Shown here one piece after another: positions 57,061 through 63,881 of a stretch of 64,000 bases of DNA. This DNA comes from Chthoniobacteraceae bacterium. GTDB taxonomy: Bacteria; Verrucomicrobiota; Verrucomicrobiia; Chthoniobacterales; Chthoniobacteraceae. A program made the translations under genes and the position numbers. The notes beneath the pieces were generated by a model, which was given only the letters and a program-made list of their open reading frames with translations, made no database searches and was not told the origin of the DNA. How positions within the stretch are numbered: the stretch's first letter is position 1; each line of letters opens with the position of its first letter. Where the stretch lies: the NCBI GenBank assembly GCA_947449735.1, contig CANFTB010000014.1, forward strand, positions 1-64,000, written 5' to 3'.

Positions 57061-57137
57061 GCACTCGTAGCTCAATTGGATAGAGCGCTGCCCTCCGAAG
57101 GCAGAGGTTATGGGTTCGACCCCCGTCGAGTGCACCA
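57061..57137 (+). tRNA. tRNA-Arg (anticodon CCG)
   Basis: Cloverleaf: acceptor GCACTCG/CGAGTGC, D-arm GCTC/GAGC, anticodon stem CTGCC/GGCAG with loop CTCCGAA (CCG), T-arm ATGGG/CCCGT with loop TTCGACC, then ACCA so CCA is encoded. The 3' 48 bp (57090-57137) are repeated at 61415-61462. Confidence 0.95.
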
Positions 57138-57176
57138 CTTTTTAAAGGTGGAAATCGCTGAAAACCAACATTTAAG
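57090..57176 (+). repeat. direct repeat, left copy (tRNA-Arg 3' half plus flank): attL-like
   Basis: 57090-57137 matches 61415-61462 at 46 of 48 bases (mismatches at the anticodon-stem G/C and T-loop A/C). A second block, 57147-57176, matches 61473-61502 at about 26 of 30. Such a copy of a tRNA 3' end is the standard mark of element integration by a tyrosine recombinase. Confidence 0.85.
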
Positions 57177-57192
57177 GGATCCGGTAAACGGG

Positions 57193-57211
57193 AATAAGGG
57201 AATCCCTTATT
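57193..57211. other. inverted repeat in the attL-like flank
   Basis: AATAAGGGA A TCCCTTATT: 9-bp arms around a single base, between the tRNA-Arg repeat and the 32-bp block. It could be a recombinase or regulator site; as a terminator it lacks a T-run. Confidence 0.45.
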
Positions 57212-57229
57212 ATGGGAAGGATGGGTCTC

Positions 57230-57261
57230 TACGCCAAAGTTTGGGGAGGGGTGTGTTGTAA
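57230..57261 (+). repeat. 32-bp block, copy 1 (downstream of tRNA-Arg)
   Basis: The block begins TACGCCAAAGTTTGGGGAGG and ends GTGTGTTGTAA. It is identical to 63721-63752 and lies 93 bp after the tRNA-Arg CCA end. A degenerate copy sits at 61518-61529. Confidence 0.95.
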
Positions 57262-57351
57262 CCGGCCATCCGTCACCAAACGCACGCCCCTGTTCGGTTG
57301 TGACCTGAAGCGCGGGCCGATTTCCGCGCAGGGGCGCTGGGAGGGATTGCG

Positions 57352-60240
57352 CTACTGTCCGGACGAGGCAGAGTATGGAAATTCATCCTCTGCCAGCATG
57401 CGCTCCTTGGGTTTCTCTCCAAGTTCCACGTCGAGCGAACCGCCGTTGACGATGTCACTGTGACTAATCCACGTCTTGGTGTGCTCCCGGGCGTTGAGGC
57501 TGCGCTTTTGAACAAAAACCGTTTTGCCGCCATTGTTGCCGCCATTGTGGGGTGCAGAGATGACAAAGGATTTACCGTTTGGGAAACGCATGGTCGCCTT
57601 GCGCACCACGGGGCTGGTGAGGACATAGCTAGGATGGCCCGGTGTCAGGGGATAGAACCCCAGTGCGGAGAGCAGATACCAAGCGGAGGACGAACCGTTG
57701 TCTTCGTCGCCAGGGTAACCGTGCTGCGGCTCTGATCCGTAAAGTTCGGCACAGGCTTTGCGCGTCCAACCTTCCATTTTCCACGGCTGTCCGGCCGCGG
57801 CATACAGGTAGGGAAGGTGAAAGCTCGGTTGGTTGTTTTGCGCCCACTGCCCGAATTTAATAGCCTCCATTTCCCTCATCTCGTGGATCACTCCGCCGTG
57901 ATCGCCGAGATGGAACACGGGCCGTTGGTCGAACAGCTTGTCGAGTTTGGACGCCAGCGCTGCCCTGCCACCGAGCAACCTTGACAGGCCTTCTGCATCA
58001 TGTTGCACCGCCCAACTGCCCTGCCACGGGCTGCATTCGCAGAACCCGCGGCCCCACGCGAATTCATCCACGTCGCCATCCCACGAGCCATCGGCGTTCT
58101 TCGAGCGCATGAAACCAGCACTCGGATCCCAAAGATTCCGGTAGTTCTGGGCGCGCCGCATGAGAATGCCGTAGTCCTCCTCCCTGCCAAGTACCTTGGC
58201 CGCCTGGGCGACGCACCAGTCGTCATAAGCAAAGTCCAGCGTGGCAGAGACCCAGTCGCGGCTGGAATGGGCCGGCACGTAACCCAGCGCCAGATACTCC
58301 CTCATGCTGTTGCGACCGCCGCCGGAAGCATCGGTTCGGATGTCGAAGGCATCGCGGCGTATCGCTGCATACGCCGTGGGTACATCGAATCCCCGGATGC
58401 CTTTAACGATGGCATCCGCGATCATCGCATCAGTGTGCGTTCCCACCATGCCGCCCACGCCGCCCGGGCTGGGCCACTGGGGCAGCCAGCCGCCTTCACG
58501 GTACGCGTTGCACCAGCCCTCGACGATTTCGCCCAGACGTTCCGGAAAGACGACCGACAGGAACGGAAACTGCGTGCGAAACGTATCCCACAAACCGCTG
58601 TCCACATAGGCAGGTCCGCCATGGACCTTCCCGTCAAACGGGCTGTAGTGGACCGTCCTGCCCTCGGCGTCGACCTCGTGGAAGCGATGCGGAAACTTGA
58701 GCGCGCGGTAGAGACAGCTGTAGAAAGTCTTCATCTGCTCCGGCTCGGCTTCAATCTCGATGCGCCCCAGGTTTTCCTCCCACGCTGCCGCCGTGCGCGC
58801 CCGGACAGCGTCGAAACCGCCGCTGGTTTCATTCTGCAAATTCAGCAGCGCCTGCTCGATGCTGATGTGCGAGGTGGCGATGCGCACCTCGACCACGCGG
58901 TTGGAGCCGGTGTCGAATTCAACATAGCCGCCGATGCGCTCGCCGCTTGTGGGGCGGTCCGATTCATTTGCAGTGCCTCCGCTGAAGGTGCCGTGTCGCA
59001 CGATGTCGCGATTCAGTTCGCCCACGAAGTACATCGCGTAATTTTGCGGCGCCGGATTGGAATGAAACCGCGTGAAACCCTGAAACCGCCGTCCCACAAT
59101 CTCCACAAAAGATTCGCCTGCGGGATCAATGACCAGCCGTCCTTCCTTTGAGCCTTCGTAGGCAATCCGCATGACTCCACAGCGTTCAGATGCCGTCAAC
59201 TCGGCTGTTACGCCATAACGCGGCAACTTGATGCGCATGTAGTCCGGACGATAAGTGCCGGCCTTGGGATCATAGTCGGACGCCCGTTCGCCGGGGGCCA
59301 CCACGAGCGGTCCGGTCTCGGGCATGAACAAAACATTGCCATAGTCGCCCATGAAGGGGCTGGGTTGATGCGTTGCGCGGAACCCGAGAAACTTGTGCAC
59401 CTGCGGCCGGTAAAACCACCTTGTGTTGTTGTCGCCGTAGGTCTGCGGACACCAGTCGGTCATGCCCCACGGAGAGCCCACTAGCGGCAGAGTGTTGCCG
59501 TGGCTGAACTTCTCCTCCGAGTCTGAGCCTTGCAGGATGTTGACAAACCGCAGCATGCCGGGCGCATTCGGCTCCGGCTCCGCCACCACGGGTTCCATCG
59601 CAAGGGATCCAAATTTCGCATTCACATGATTCGCCTGAATGCCGAACCGCCCGCTGGGGGGGATTTCGCCCCGTTCGAAGACATGTGCGAAGAGAAGTAC
59701 TTCGTTGCGATAGGCGCGGACGGAGGTTCCGACGATGCGGAGTGCCAGCTTTTCCGGCGCCTCTTGCGGAACAGCCACACGTCCCACAACCTTGACCCTT
59801 CCGTCGCGCACCGTTGAAAGTTCAATCCAGCCGCCCCTGCGTCCGAACTGGAGACCATTGCCCTCATCCTTTGCGCGGACCAGCAGGTTGTAAACGTCGC
59901 CATCCCGCGTGGTTTTCTCCAGCACAATCCTGGCGTCCCGGAGTGCCGGATCGCCCGCCAGGAGGATTGCGCCACTGCCTGAGCCTCGCTCGTTGCCGCC
60001 CCCCGGAGCGGCGGCCATCACCACCACCTGTCGGTCCTTCCTCACCCAGGCGCCCTTGAGCTCCGTGCAGGTTAGCGAGCCGCTTGTGAAGTTTGCAGTG
60101 AACGCCCCGGCGTCCATTCCGCGGGCCGGCTCTGCCTCGAGCGGGAGAGATGCGGCTGCCAGCAGCAAGACGGCAATGTGTGCCAGCATGCATTGCATCT
60201 CTCGGACGCTGAATTTCGGAAAAAAGGGGCTGGATCGCAT
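57352..60240 (-). CDS. exported GH92 family glycosidase (alpha-1,2-mannosidase-like)
   Basis: About 960 residues: signal peptide (CMLAHIAVLLLAAASLPLEA), a beta-sandwich of about 190 residues resembling the family-16/LamG-like type at the N-terminus, then the two GH92 domains with GSPWGMTDWCPQTY, FVEIVGRRFQGFTR, SGGFDAVRARTAAAWEENLG, GGMVGTHTDAMIADAIVKG, YPGDEDNGSSSAWYLLSALG. GH92 enzymes are calcium-dependent exo-alpha-mannosidases acting by inversion. Start ATG 60240 or 60198/60189; the signal peptide fits the latter better. It is the only intact gene of the tRNA-Arg islet. Substrate is inferred from the family. Confidence 0.9.
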   Translation of the reverse strand: MRSSPFFPKFSVREMQCMLAHIAVLLLAAASLPLEAEPARGMDAGAFTANFTSGSLTCTELKGAWVRKDRQVVVMAAAPGGGNERGSGSGAILLAGDPALRDARIVLEKTTRDGDVYNLLVRAKDEGNGLQFGRRGGWIELSTVRDGRVKVVGRVAVPQEAPEKLALRIVGTSVRAYRNEVLLFAHVFERGEIPPSGRFGIQANHVNAKFGSLAMEPVVAEPEPNAPGMLRFVNILQGSDSEEKFSHGNTLPLVGSPWGMTDWCPQTYGDNNTRWFYRPQVHKFLGFRATHQPSPFMGDYGNVLFMPETGPLVVAPGERASDYDPKAGTYRPDYMRIKLPRYGVTAELTASERCGVMRIAYEGSKEGRLVIDPAGESFVEIVGRRFQGFTRFHSNPAPQNYAMYFVGELNRDIVRHGTFSGGTANESDRPTSGERIGGYVEFDTGSNRVVEVRIATSHISIEQALLNLQNETSGGFDAVRARTAAAWEENLGRIEIEAEPEQMKTFYSCLYRALKFPHRFHEVDAEGRTVHYSPFDGKVHGGPAYVDSGLWDTFRTQFPFLSVVFPERLGEIVEGWCNAYREGGWLPQWPSPGGVGGMVGTHTDAMIADAIVKGIRGFDVPTAYAAIRRDAFDIRTDASGGGRNSMREYLALGYVPAHSSRDWVSATLDFAYDDWCVAQAAKVLGREEDYGILMRRAQNYRNLWDPSAGFMRSKNADGSWDGDVDEFAWGRGFCECSPWQGSWAVQHDAEGLSRLLGGRAALASKLDKLFDQRPVFHLGDHGGVIHEMREMEAIKFGQWAQNNQPSFHLPYLYAAAGQPWKMEGWTRKACAELYGSEPQHGYPGDEDNGSSSAWYLLSALGFYPLTPGHPSYVLTSPVVRKATMRFPNGKSFVISAPHNGGNNGGKTVFVQKRSLNAREHTKTWISHSDIVNGGSLDVELGEKPKERMLAEDEFPYSASSGQ

Positions 60241-60550
60241 GAGTTTCGTTGGGGGTGGCAGCCGCTTTGACGCTGACGGCGTTAAACGCAACAACTCCAG
60301 CCAAACCAACTGGTATTGCAAATTCAAAAAACGACGCCACAGACCCAGGGATGCGAACGGGCAGATTTCGCGCAGCCGGTCGGCGGTGGCCGAGTTTAAG
60401 CGGATGACTGGCTATCCGCATGGGCGGCCCGGTTACGTGGTCGACCACATTGTGCCGCTGGCGCTGGGCGGGGCGGACCCGCCGGCCAACATGCAGTGGC
60501 AGACGGTGGAGGCAGCGAAGGATAAGGACCGCTGGGAGCTTATTGAGTAG
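60239..60550 (+). pseudogene. HNH endonuclease-like fragment
   Basis: The frame ends with a clear HNH-like core: PGYVVDHIVPLALGGADPPA then NMQWQTVEAAKDKDRWELIE, preceded by RDANGQISRSRSAVAEFKRM. Relatives usually have a signal peptide and a cysteine-rich stretch before the core; here the N-terminal 30 residues are the antisense of the GH92 leader. The gene has probably lost its 5' part, or its real start is another codon. Overlaps the Sel1 fragment end by 11 bp. Whether it is active cannot be told. Confidence 0.55.
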
Positions 60551-60953
60551 GGAGCGGTTTGCCCTGCTTGATCAGTTCAGCGTAGGTGACGCTCAGTTTT
60601 TGAGCTTCGGCGATCTGTTCGCTGGTCATTTTTTTCTCCAGGCTCGAAAGTTTTTCCCGAAAACTTTCAGCCTGTGGCGATGACGAGGCAATACTAAGCC
60701 AGAGTTGAGCTTGAACGTAATTCTTTGGGACACCGCGTCCTTCCTCATAGCTTATAACAAACCAAAAGAGGCTCAGATTATCTCCTGAACTTGCTCCTTT
60801 TTGCCACCATTCAAGAGCTCTTCTCTCGTCTTTTGTAACTCCGAAACCCTTAGAATAAGCCTCCCCGAGAGAGGCATATGACAATATAAATCTTTGCTCC
60901 GCCGCTTTCTGATACCACTCAAAGGCTTTACCTGCATCTTTTTGAACAGCTCT
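60540..60953 (-). pseudogene. 5'-truncated Sel1-repeat protein
   Basis: Frame open from the TAA at 60954 to 60540, with Sel1 repeats KAFEWYQKAAEQ then SYASLGEAYSKGFGVTKDER and FVISYEEGRGVPKNYVQAQL. The first repeat has no start and directly abuts a stop codon and the integrase fragment, so the 5' half is gone. A TTG at 60884 could start a 114-residue remnant. Confidence 0.7.
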
Positions 60954-61224
60954 TTAGCGCGGTGGGTCTAAGGCCCCGAGAAATTTTGTAGGTTTGAAAT
61001 GCCTGAAACGCCTCACCGAGGGATTTCGGCCGTTTAGTCTCAAGGTGGTTGGCGAGCGCTTTGTTTAAAATCTCGTAAGGGCAGAGGCCTAGTGACTCAA
61101 GTTTCGCCATAACGCTAGGGGGCAGGTTTGGGGCGGTGGACACGGTATCGGCGAGGAGTGCGGCGATCTCCTCGGCTTTGCCAAGCGCCTTGGCGCGGTC
61201 TTTGAACTTATACTGACCGCTCTT
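60928..61224 (-). pseudogene. tyrosine-integrase N-terminal fragment
   Basis: This frame, open between a stop at 61225 and 60928, reads FKDRAKALGKAEEIAALL, LESLGLCPYEILNKALANHL, SLGEAFQAFQTYKISRGLRP. It aligns in pattern with the core-binding region of the intact integrase at 4586 (TGFTLLEAAKEV, SVKEGLSAYHDN). The catalytic domain is missing; the sequence runs straight into the Sel1 fragment. It lies 190 bp from the right tRNA-Arg repeat, where an islet integrase would be expected. Confidence 0.65.
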
Positions 61225-61414
61225 TTACCCGGATAATCGTGCTGGCGTGCGTCGACTAGAAAAGTATCGGTCGAGGGGCGGTAATCGACTGTTGGGAAAT
61301 CGAAGCGGGTGCGGTTGGGAGTGGAGTCGTCTTGCACTCTCACCTATCGTACGTGACGGCCCGGTGCGCTGGGAGGTTTGTGACTTTTCTCTCCATTTAC
61401 TCTGGAAACGCGGA

Positions 61415-61502
61415 GCCCTCCGAACGCAGAGGTTATGGGTTCGCCCCCCGTCGAGTGCACCATCCTGATCAGGGTGGAAGTCGCTGAAAACAAACAGTTA
61501 AG
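61415..61502 (+). repeat. direct repeat, right copy (tRNA-Arg 3' half plus flank): attR-like
   Basis: Contains the anticodon loop, variable, T-arm and acceptor 3' strand of tRNA-Arg ending GAGTGCACCA (61415-61462), then GGTGGAAGTCGCTGAAAACA from 61473. No 5' half is present, so it cannot be a tRNA. Just after it, GCGCCAAAGT (61520-61529) matches the start of the 32-bp block. Confidence 0.85.
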
Positions 61503-61528
61503 CGAAGGGGTGGCGGTTTGCGCCAAAG

Positions 61529-62473
61529 TCACGTCCGTGCGTTCAGAGCAAGCGCAGCGCAACCGATGGCGCCCGCGTCGTTGCCCAGTGTCGCCGGGAC
61601 GATGCGCAGATGTCGGTTCATCACGGGGGACGTCCTGCTTTTGAGGGAACGTTCAATGTGCGGGAACAGGACTTCCGCCGCCTTTGCAACGCCTCCGCCC
61701 ACGACGATCACGTCGGGGTTCAACAGCCACACGATGTTGGCAAAAGCAGCGCCGAGTTCGGTGCCGACGGCTTCCCAGATTCCGGTGGCCACGGCGCATC
61801 CCGAAAGCGCCGCGTCATGCAGGTCCTTCGGCGTGCATTCCGCGGACGGTGCGGACTTTCCCGCGGCCGCGTAGGCGGTGAGTGCGCGGGTGCTGATTTG
61901 GTGGTTTCCCACGTAGGCTTCCAGGCACCCTAGGTTTCCGTAGGGGCCGCTGATGCCGCGGTAGTCGATGCTCGTGTGGCCGATTTCGCCCGCGGCAAGC
62001 TGTGAGCCCCGGTAAAGCTGGCCCTCCAAAATGAGACCGCCGCCTACTCCCGTGCCAAGGGTTACGCAGATGGCGTTTCGAGTATTGGCAGCCGCTCCGT
62101 AGAGCCACTCCCCGTAAGCCATGGCGTTGGCGTCGTTCTCCAGAATCACGGGCACCTTGAGCCGCTCCGATAAAATGGCGGACACCGGAACCTCGTCCCA
62201 GCCCGGGACGTTGGAGAGCCCATGCACAATTCCGTGTAGGCTGTCGACGAATCCGGGGAGACCGATACCGACCGGCACCAAGCCGGGCAACCCGGTGCAC
62301 AGGGAGCGGATGGCCGACTCCATGGCTGCGAGGCTTTCGGCCGCAGTGTGTCCCTGGGGGTTGATGGGGTCGCCGTGCTGAAGAATGTGAGCGCCTTGGA
62401 CGAGTGCGGGCTTAATGCTGGTACCGCCGAAATCGATGCCGATGGCGCAGGGAATGGGTGCAGAGTGTGACAC
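61529..62473 (-). CDS. ROK-family sugar kinase (glucokinase-like)
   Basis: 314 residues from GTG 62473. ATP site IGIDFGGTSIKPALV, GIGLPGFVDS, substrate region ENDANAMAYGEW, TLGTGVGGGLILEGQLYRG and AGEIGHTSID all fit ROK kinases. The usual CxCGxxGCxE zinc motif is GPYGNLGCLE, with two of three cysteines lost. The frame is open upstream to TTG 62524, overlapping coaX. It phosphorylates glucose or another hexose. Transcribed with coaX; its stop touches the right end of the islet. Confidence 0.9.
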   Translation of the reverse strand: MSHSAPIPCAIGIDFGGTSIKPALVQGAHILQHGDPINPQGHTAAESLAAMESAIRSLCTGLPGLVPVGIGLPGFVDSLHGIVHGLSNVPGWDEVPVSAILSERLKVPVILENDANAMAYGEWLYGAAANTRNAICVTLGTGVGGGLILEGQLYRGSQLAAGEIGHTSIDYRGISGPYGNLGCLEAYVGNHQISTRALTAYAAAGKSAPSAECTPKDLHDAALSGCAVATGIWEAVGTELGAAFANIVWLLNPDVIVVGGGVAKAAEVLFPHIERSLKSRTSPVMNRHLRIVPATLGNDAGAIGCAALALNART

Positions 62474-62489
62474 GGGGCAGGGGATGGTT

Positions 62490-63242
62490 TTAAAGTGGTT
62501 TTTCAGTAAAATGTCGGGCTCCAATTAAGCGCAGCCCTTCCATCGTGAGTTTGGAGTGAACGCAGTCGATCTCAGGCAAACCCGCGGCGATGAGTTCAGC
62601 GTAACCGCCCGTCGCCACAACCTTGAACTTTCGAGCGCGCGGCATGGAAGCCCGGATTTTGTGCAAAATCTCGCGCACCAATCCACGGTAACCGTAAACA
62701 GCCCCTGACAGCATGGCGTGCTTGGTCGACTTGCCGATGACGCCGGGCGGCTCCAGAAGGCTGATTTTCGGAAGGTTCGCCGTCCGGTGGTGCAGGTAAT
62801 CGGTCATCGCTTCCAAACCGGGCGCGATGACGCCGCCAACGTAGTCGCCCCTGGCCGAGATGATATCGAAGGTCACGGCCGTACCGAAATCGACAACGAC
62901 CGCCGGCGCATCGTACAACCCGGCGACTGCCGCGGCGTTCGCGAGCCGGTCGGCTCCAATGGAGGAGGGGTTCGGGTAGTCAATGCCGACGCCAAGGTCT
63001 GTTTTTGCGTTCACCTCCAGAAGCGGCTTTTTTGAAAGAACCTTTTTCAGAAGGGCGTTCTTCACAGGCACCACCGAGCAGAGGATGACGGCTTCGAAAT
63101 TCCATCCCTTTAGAGCCTTGCGGACGCCCGCCGCGCTCAGGGTGCGGGTCGGCAGGCGCTGCACACGCCCCACCGCATCGCGGCTCGAAAGGGCGAATTT
63201 TGTGAAGGAGTTGCTGTTGTCGATGAGAAGAAACGCGGCCAT
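62490..63242 (-). CDS. coaX: type III pantothenate kinase
   Basis: 250 residues from ATG 63242. The family motifs LLIDNSNSFTKFAL, SIGADRLANAAAVAG, VVVDFGTAVTFDII and GGVIAPGLEAM are present; the N-terminal DxGN is DNSN. It makes 4'-phosphopantothenate, the first step of CoA synthesis. It leads the ROK kinase with a 16-bp gap. Confidence 0.94.
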   Translation of the reverse strand: MAAFLLIDNSNSFTKFALSSRDAVGRVQRLPTRTLSAAGVRKALKGWNFEAVILCSVVPVKNALLKKVLSKKPLLEVNAKTDLGVGIDYPNPSSIGADRLANAAAVAGLYDAPAVVVDFGTAVTFDIISARGDYVGGVIAPGLEAMTDYLHHRTANLPKISLLEPPGVIGKSTKHAMLSGAVYGYRGLVREILHKIRASMPRARKFKVVATGGYAELIAAGLPEIDCVHSKLTMEGLRLIGARHFTEKPL

Positions 63243-63528
63243 GGGGAATGGGTGATGAGTCGGGAACGGGCGAGTCTGCATTTCCTAGTGGGGAGCTCAA
63301 GCTTTGGGGGCTTTCTGTTTTTGGCGAACAGAGCTTTTTTTAGGGTGCCGTCAGGAAGCGGGGGTAAAATTGACTGCCGTTCAAAAGAGTAAAGGCATCT
63401 CAAAACAAAACGCGGGGGAGATGCCATTTTTCAATCGACCATTTGAGGCATAGTATGTCGAAAGAGAGAGTTACCCGAGTGAGAAAGGAACGCCTGAAAA
63501 ACAAAGTCTGAAATTCAGGGATTTCGTG
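63243..63528. other. non-coding gap between coaX and tRNA-Asp
   Basis: Non-coding, AT-richer than the rest of the window near 63440-63520. Only spurious frames seen. Upstream coaX promoter and the tRNA promoter must lie here. Confidence 0.4.
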
Positions 63529-63557
63529 TTGACCAACACGTGGAGGTGGGCTTTCAT
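63529..63557 (+). promoter_or_regulatory. sigma70-type promoter of tRNA-Asp
   Basis: TTGACC at 63529-63534, 17-bp spacer, TTTCAT at 63552-63557, then 14 bp to the tRNA. The -35 lies inside the inverted repeat CGTGTT/AACACG (63525-63540). Confidence 0.55.
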
Positions 63558-63571
63558 GACTCCTCCTTTTA

Positions 63572-63645
63572 GGAGTCTTAGCTCAATTGGTTAGAGCGCC
63601 GCCCTGTCACGGCGGAGGTTGCGGGTTCGAGCCCCGTAGACTCCG
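63572..63645 (+). tRNA. tRNA-Asp (anticodon GTC)
   Basis: Cloverleaf: acceptor GGAGTCT/AGACTCC, D-arm GCTC/GAGC, anticodon stem CCGCC/GGCGG with loop CTGTCAC (GTC), T-arm GCGGG/CCCGT with loop TTCGAGC, discriminator G. CCA is not encoded. A GACTCC in the leader (63559) could pair with the 5' acceptor strand. Confidence 0.95.
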
Positions 63646-63720
63646 CTCCTTTTTTAAGGAGCAACCCACTGAAACCCAACGGTTATGGAAGTGGCTCTCG
63701 GAGGATAGGAAAAACGGGTT

Positions 63721-63752
63721 TACGCCAAAGTTTGGGGAGGGGTGTGTTGTAA
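63721..63752 (+). repeat. 32-bp block, copy 2 (downstream of tRNA-Asp)
   Basis: Identical to 57230-57261. It lies 76 bp after tRNA-Asp, preceded by CCACTGAAACCCAACGGTTA (63667-63686), which resembles CGCTGAAAACCAACATTTA after tRNA-Arg. Confidence 0.95.
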
Positions 63753-63881
63753 GTTGAAGGTTGGTGCAGGTGGTTGATTCAGGGGGGAACAGGATTTCTA
63801 TCCGCAGGCTGCGATGACTCTCTCTGGCGATAACTCACGCGGAGCAGTAGCTGGCGGTTTAAAAATCTAGGCCACTTGTGG

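Follow-up and report, generated by a model that had tools for sequence, protein, structure and literature searches.

The 64,000-nucleotide stretch of Chthoniobacteraceae DNA analysed here (the window) contains two copies of a 32-bp block, TACGCCAAAGTTTGGGGAGGGGTGTGTTGTAA, with the same letters at 57230-57261 and 63721-63752, one downstream of a tRNA-Arg gene and the other downstream of a tRNA-Asp gene. The block forms part of the left end (LE), with its terminal inverted repeat, of an insertion sequence (IS) of the ISL3 family. Judging from comparisons of its copies and their surroundings, this IS, which belongs to a distinct clade of ISL3 transposases, very probably steers its insertions to the DNA immediately past tRNA genes, with the LE toward the tRNA 3' end.

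The repeated block is the left end of an ISL3-family insertion sequence

The identity of the two blocks behind unrelated tRNA genes, on which the original prediction was based, was confirmed: 0.01 matches to the 32-mer are expected in the shuffled window even with 3 mismatches. The repeat nevertheless starts earlier than the predicted positions 57230 and 63721, namely at 57223 (tip GGGTC) and 63716 (tip GGGTT), and its homology extends beyond the 32-mer, the second copy running on to 63820. The features concerned are as follows.

57061..57137, + strand: tRNA-Arg(ccg), target upstream of the first remnant (ARAGORN)
57223..57261, + strand: LE remnant 1, tip GGGTCTCTACGCC (2 extra bases) and subterminal part, truncated after 39 bp (sequence match to the IS)
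61416..61461, + strand: duplicated tRNA-Arg 3' portion (anticodon arm, T arm and acceptor), attachment-site (att)-like repeat of a separate integrative islet (repeat search)
61515..61529, + strand: candidate decayed LE tip, GGTTTGCGCCAAAGT (15-bp match, 2 mismatches)
63572..63646, + strand: tRNA-Asp(gtc), target upstream of the second remnant (ARAGORN)
63716..63820, + strand: LE remnant 2, IS positions 1-105 at 85% identity, transposase part lost (sequence match to the IS)

Positions 57228-57261 share 97% identity with IS positions 4-37 (E 5e-10). Both remnants have their LE tip toward the tRNA 3' end, the first 85 bp past tRNA-Arg and the second, with the tip GGGTTTACGCC at 63716, 69 bp past tRNA-Asp. 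They retain no transposase, and their family assignment rests on their ends. A degenerate third copy had also been proposed near 61520. The candidate at 61515-61529 lies 54 bp past the tRNA-Arg 3' fragment, in the expected place and orientation, but its 15-bp match is borderline, as 0.9% of random segments of equal length reach the same score; that it is a LE remnant is plausible but unproven. The whole genome contains five exact copies of the 32-mer and one with 2 mismatches, and eight sites were found with a longer query.

When the copies were aligned, they shared one precise end, GGGTCTAC[A/G]CCAAAGTTTGGGGAGG, and broke off at varying points on the other side. A full-length copy in genome G005 (L021/L087) measures 1,311 bp, within the roughly 1.2-1.5 kb of the ISL3 family, and carries the terminal inverted repeats GGGTCTACACCAAAGTTTGGGGA and GGCTCTTGATCAAAGATTGGGGA and a single open reading frame (ORF) of 394 aa. 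The product of this ORF is an ISL3-family transposase, matching PF01610 (E 7e-56), Zn_ribbon_ISL3 and the NCBIfam profile NF033550 (ISL3), the last with 269 bits for a cut-off of 180 bits. Since the ORF of the full-length copy is an ISL3 transposase, the block is the LE, the end beyond the transposase stop codon. Terminal inverted repeats were likewise found in the copies of Puniceicoccaceae Marseille-Q1082 (GGGTCAACACCAAAGGTTGTGGAAT / CGCTCTACGTCAAAGATTGTGGAAT).

Full copies were located at contig ends, as expected for a repeat, and contig pairs were joined via 8-bp duplications: GCTATGCC (G005, tRNA-Pro), GAGAAAGT (G001, tRNA-Gly) and TTCTAGCC (G000, tRNA-Gly-gcc). Several more 8-bp duplications, such as taaatttc and gtttacgt, were found in Marseille-Q1082. 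Eight base pairs is the usual length of target-site duplications in the ISL3 family. At tRNA-Gly-ccc, G001 and G000 each bear an insertion that is absent in the other, so that both empty sites are visible. These reciprocal empty sites, together with the insertions behind tRNA-Asp that differ between four species, show that the insertions occurred independently.

The original prediction took the block for the conserved end of one family of integrative elements targeting different tRNAs, or for a recombinase site of an undescribed type. The part that stands is that it is the conserved end of one mobile family reaching many tRNAs; the family consists of a DDE insertion sequence rather than of integrase-borne elements, and a terminal inverted repeat takes the place of the new recombinase site. 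An att end would fit the tRNA 3' fragments and integrase-like motifs (GCTGAAAACCAAC; elsewhere AAAATCAA..AGTTACG) that flank some copies, as well as the tRNA-Arg 3' duplication in the window. However, the intact copy codes for an ISL3 transposase alone, the distance from the tRNA varies, the block is missing from the empty sites at the reciprocal tRNA-Gly loci of G001 and G000, and the islets are a separate, overlapping phenomenon. The 8-bp duplications and reciprocal empty sites led us to reject an integrase att site, an explanation to which we give next to no chance.

Three other candidates do not hold either. The block is not a transcription terminator, since it is genus-specific, occurs at only some tRNAs and is part of an IS. 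A target-primed retroelement had been considered because one end is precise, the other is ragged and GGGTCTAC units occur in tandem. It was discarded since the ORF of the intact copy codes for a DDE transposase, and since the tandem units are consistent with the 8-bp duplications made when the IS inserts into the tip of a copy already present. Finally, the single ORF and the gaps of 6-428 bp to the tRNA do not correspond to a Tn7-like element, with its TnsB, TnsC and TniQ genes and fixed distance.

Association with tRNA genes in the genus

Relatives in the same genus carry many more copies than the genome of the window, the copy and site counts resting on genome-search listings. At 26 of the 35 distinct LE sites in the genus, the LE side has a tRNA no more than 430 bp away, and the 3' end of this tRNA always faces the LE. 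The gaps have a median of about 70 bp. Two more sites face a tRNA 3' end at a distance of 0.8-1.1 kb, one lies behind a tRNA 3' fragment (L065) and another behind a younger copy inserted after tRNA-Gly-gcc (C59). A separate right-end remnant (C3:138182) was found about 92 bp past tRNA-Tyr in the same orientation. The genome of the window has 45 tRNAs, and a random site has a chance of 0.002 of facing one within 400 bp; six of its eight sites do so (binomial P about 3e-15). The predicted enrichment downstream of tRNA 3' ends is strong in the genus. The block is not scattered without tRNAs, nor does it follow every tRNA: about 7 of the 45 tRNA genes of this genome bear a copy or remnant.

The targets in the genus include tRNAs for Arg, Asp, Val, Gly, His, Thr, Ser, Pro, Gln, Glu and Ala. 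Behind tRNA-Asp, the insertions differ in four species and the downstream DNA is unrelated in each. The target is therefore neither one particular tRNA nor the downstream sequence. A conserved target sequence was also rejected, as no common motif is visible in the duplicated 8-mers.

Distribution and the transposase clade

When 84,980 genomes were scanned once with the transposase as query, 79 loci were found. They belong to Verrucomicrobiota, Kiritimatiellota, Planctomycetota, Armatimonadota, Pseudomonadota (many of them Legionella) and Bdellovibrionota. Most of these loci have a tRNA on the opposite strand directly past the transposase stop codon, usually with a recognisable LE tip (GGGTC or GGCTC, with CCA a few bases further) between the stop codon and the tRNA. 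Marseille-Q1082 has 46 tRNAs and 27 copies of the IS. Of these copies, 15 have a tRNA facing them at no more than 400 bp (0.003 expected per copy; binomial 2.5e-31), 3 others are nested behind tRNA-facing ones, and none of the 27 faces a tRNA 5' end. In Legionella adelaidensis, from a separate genome collection, three of four copies lie behind a tRNA or, in one case, a tRNA 3' fragment. A clade member was also found just past the transfer-messenger RNA (tmRNA) gene at L120 (324-1478 and beyond), a single case; tmRNA has the T arm and acceptor in common with tRNAs. At the 20 loci without an adjacent tRNA, no ribosomal RNA, RNase P RNA, signal recognition particle RNA or other stable RNA was found. 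This speaks against strong transcription as a general cause, and targeting of any strongly transcribed stable RNA was rejected.

Sixty ISL3-transposase regions of the same bacterial class, chosen by family profile alone, served as control. Only three have a facing tRNA, and all three fall inside the clade of the element. In a quick tree of 61 transposases, made without bootstrap, all 19 tRNA-adjacent rows belong to one clade of 28 with a Shimodaira-Hasegawa-like approximate likelihood ratio test (SH-aLRT) value of 100, and none of the 33 ISL3 transposases outside it has a facing tRNA. Scoring a clade row as having no tRNA is conservative, since L087, L119 and L136, all so labelled, are contig ends, and L156 and L160, labelled likewise, have tRNA 3' fragments. 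The clade has a C-terminal signature, MWRFTKNNGITEGFHRKMKLIQRRAYGFRNF, around the catalytic glutamate, which the transposase of the element matches. The tRNA association is a property of one transposase clade. As an IS end the block is ordinary; the clade to which the IS belongs is unusual. Other multi-copy ISL3 elements of the same class, with transposases of 416 and 371 aa (L233-L258, in G148, G153 and G163), have no tRNA nearby and lend themselves to comparison as elements that do not target tRNAs.

These comparisons bear on the possibility of survival bias, by which the IS would insert anywhere and its copies would last mainly past tRNA genes, where the DNA is harmless to interrupt. The sites are indeed intergenic, the tRNAs are intact and many copies are old remnants. 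Yet the 33 transposases outside the clade, of the same class and sampled in the same way, are without a facing tRNA, and the near-identical, young copies of Marseille-Q1082 are already associated (15 of 27) in essentially one orientation, with tRNA-downstream DNA making up less than 1% of the genome. Survival bias is thus a quite improbable explanation.

Target choice and proposed mechanism

The element might instead target intrinsic terminators, or transcription ends in general, with tRNA operons merely the commonest case. Several copies of Marseille-Q1082 (L125, L134, L141) are found directly behind a hairpin and T-run, and one locus (L162) lies behind the terminator of a protein gene. Protein-gene terminators should, however, far outnumber those of tRNAs, and they are seldom struck; moreover, the insertions at L045 and L070 lie between the tRNAs of one array, and that at L099 lies 6 bp past the tRNA, which leaves no room for a terminator. 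Targeting of terminators is consequently considered unlikely.

Targeting of tRNA genes, the explanation that we prefer, would proceed as follows. The transposase or its transpososome would recognise the tRNA gene as such, probably through the 3' half, where the T arm and acceptor lie, and the IS would be inserted mostly 5-190 bp past the tRNA with the LE toward the tRNA 3' end, so that the transposase gene and the tRNA converge. The 3' half is proposed as the determinant because it is common to the different tRNAs, the tRNA 3' fragments and tmRNA, because the downstream DNA is unrelated, and because insertions occur inside tRNA arrays; the cases with tRNA fragments are not conclusive, as the fragment could postdate the insertion. 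The feature recognised is probably either the T-arm and acceptor DNA or the tRNA transcript itself, with a tRNA-processing complex as a further candidate for what the transposase binds. We lean towards the view that a lone DDE transposase, with no helper protein or guide RNA, recognises a feature of all tRNA genes and tmRNA and inserts downstream in a fixed orientation.

Spread may occur by copy-out/paste-in, since the fold predicted for the transposase (mean predicted local distance difference test score, pLDDT, 80.5) is nearest to that of the ISCth4 transposase, its best Foldseek match (E 4e-8); a profile search against solved structures gave no sequence relative. The insertion site, which leaves the tRNA intact, would represent a safe haven. 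Repeated insertion into the LEs of older copies would give nested arrays and LE-only remnants, like both of those in the window, to which later decay would also contribute. Such insertion into older LEs accounts for the nested LEs and for the tandem GGGTCTAC units present at some copies. Nested arrays of two to four left ends behind one tRNA were observed at L172, L181, L159 and L163.

Several observations weigh against directed insertion at tRNA genes. About 9 of the 35 sites in the genus and about 9 of the 27 copies in Marseille-Q1082 are without a close tRNA; some of these lie behind tRNA 3' fragments, nested copies or contig ends, but others, L109, L127, L142 and L148 among them, do not. 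In two copies of Marseille-Q1082, it is the right end that faces a tRNA 3' end. The insertion distance is broad, no target motif was found, and the structure model has low confidence at the C-terminus. In addition, a diverged member (L162:3001-4144, 35% identity) directly follows the terminator of a protein gene instead of a tRNA, and its targeting may have shifted or been lost.

A probable integrative islet in the window

The region 57061-61530 is bounded by tRNA-Arg and the duplicated tRNA-Arg 3' portion (61416-61461). The genes noted in it are the following.

57352-60327, - strand: GH92 glycoside hydrolase gene
60540-60884, - strand: Sel1-repeat ORF

No integrase was identified among the islet ORFs scanned. 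The islet looks like an integrative element minus its integrase and distinct from the IS. The original prediction also drew attention to a GCTGAAAA-type motif after all three tRNA ends. The motif is present, as [GA]CTGAAAnCnAACnnTTAnG, at 57157-57185, 61480-61505 and 63667-63690, but it is not part of the repeat and is missing at most other IS copies, for instance after Val-gac, Val-tac, Gly-gcc, Pro and His. A similar sequence, AAAATCAAnnAGTTACG, is carried by the Legionella tRNAs adjoining the IS. These tRNA-end motifs probably act as att or arm sites for tyrosine integrases using the same tRNAs as the IS.

Relation to known elements and significance

Insertion sequences are usually thought to pick their targets loosely or via a short motif. 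Members of the ISL3 family such as ISAfe1 of Acidithiobacillus ferrooxidans resemble the element in their PF01610/NF033550 transposase, single ORF, terminal inverted repeats and 8-bp duplications. ISAfe1 inserts into protein genes (pstC2) (PMC10322971), and the other ISL3 elements sampled here have no tRNA association, whereas insertions of the clade described here lie past tRNA genes and in a single orientation. No tRNA-targeting ISL3 element was found in the full-text literature; as subscription papers and ISfinder lay outside this scope, the description of the behaviour as new is provisional.

The nearest known behaviour is that of the Dictyostelium retrotransposons TRE3 and Skipper-2, which insert 40-150 bp and 7-136 bp, respectively, downstream of tRNA genes, thought to be a safe haven (PMC5006619, PMC5911963). 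They likewise use many different tRNA genes and a similar downstream window. They are, however, eukaryotic retrotransposons for which box B and the RNA polymerase III machinery are implicated, whereas the element studied here has a bacterial DDE transposase and no reverse transcriptase. The data are best explained, in all likelihood, by a bacterial counterpart of TRE3. Among bacterial DDE systems directed to tRNA genes, Tn7-like elements and CRISPR-associated transposons (CASTs; types I-B2, I-D and V-K) use these genes as att sites (PMC11406308), but they depend on a dedicated selector (TnsD/TniQ or CRISPR RNA), whereas the IS has one 394-aa transposase within 1.3 kb and reaches many isotypes. 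Islands and prophages with tyrosine integrases also integrate at tRNA genes, and such islets share the same places. Their recombination takes place inside the tRNA 3' end, at an identical core that becomes duplicated, whereas the IS enters the DNA past the tRNA and the 8 bp that it duplicates are unrelated.

If directed insertion is true, the element would be the simplest known tRNA-directed transposon, with one gene, almost any tRNA gene as a target and one side only. We also find it reasonably likely that such recognition is an independent prokaryotic invention of targeting as in yeast Ty and Dictyostelium TRE, extending over at least six phyla, and convergent evolution with the eukaryotic tRNA-targeting retrotransposons would become testable in bacteria. 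As a tool, the IS may offer a compact way of inserting DNA harmlessly at many defined sites. It would also give a second reason, beside integrases, for the mobile-element graveyards next to tRNA genes, where left-end remnants like the 32-mer can pass for att sites.

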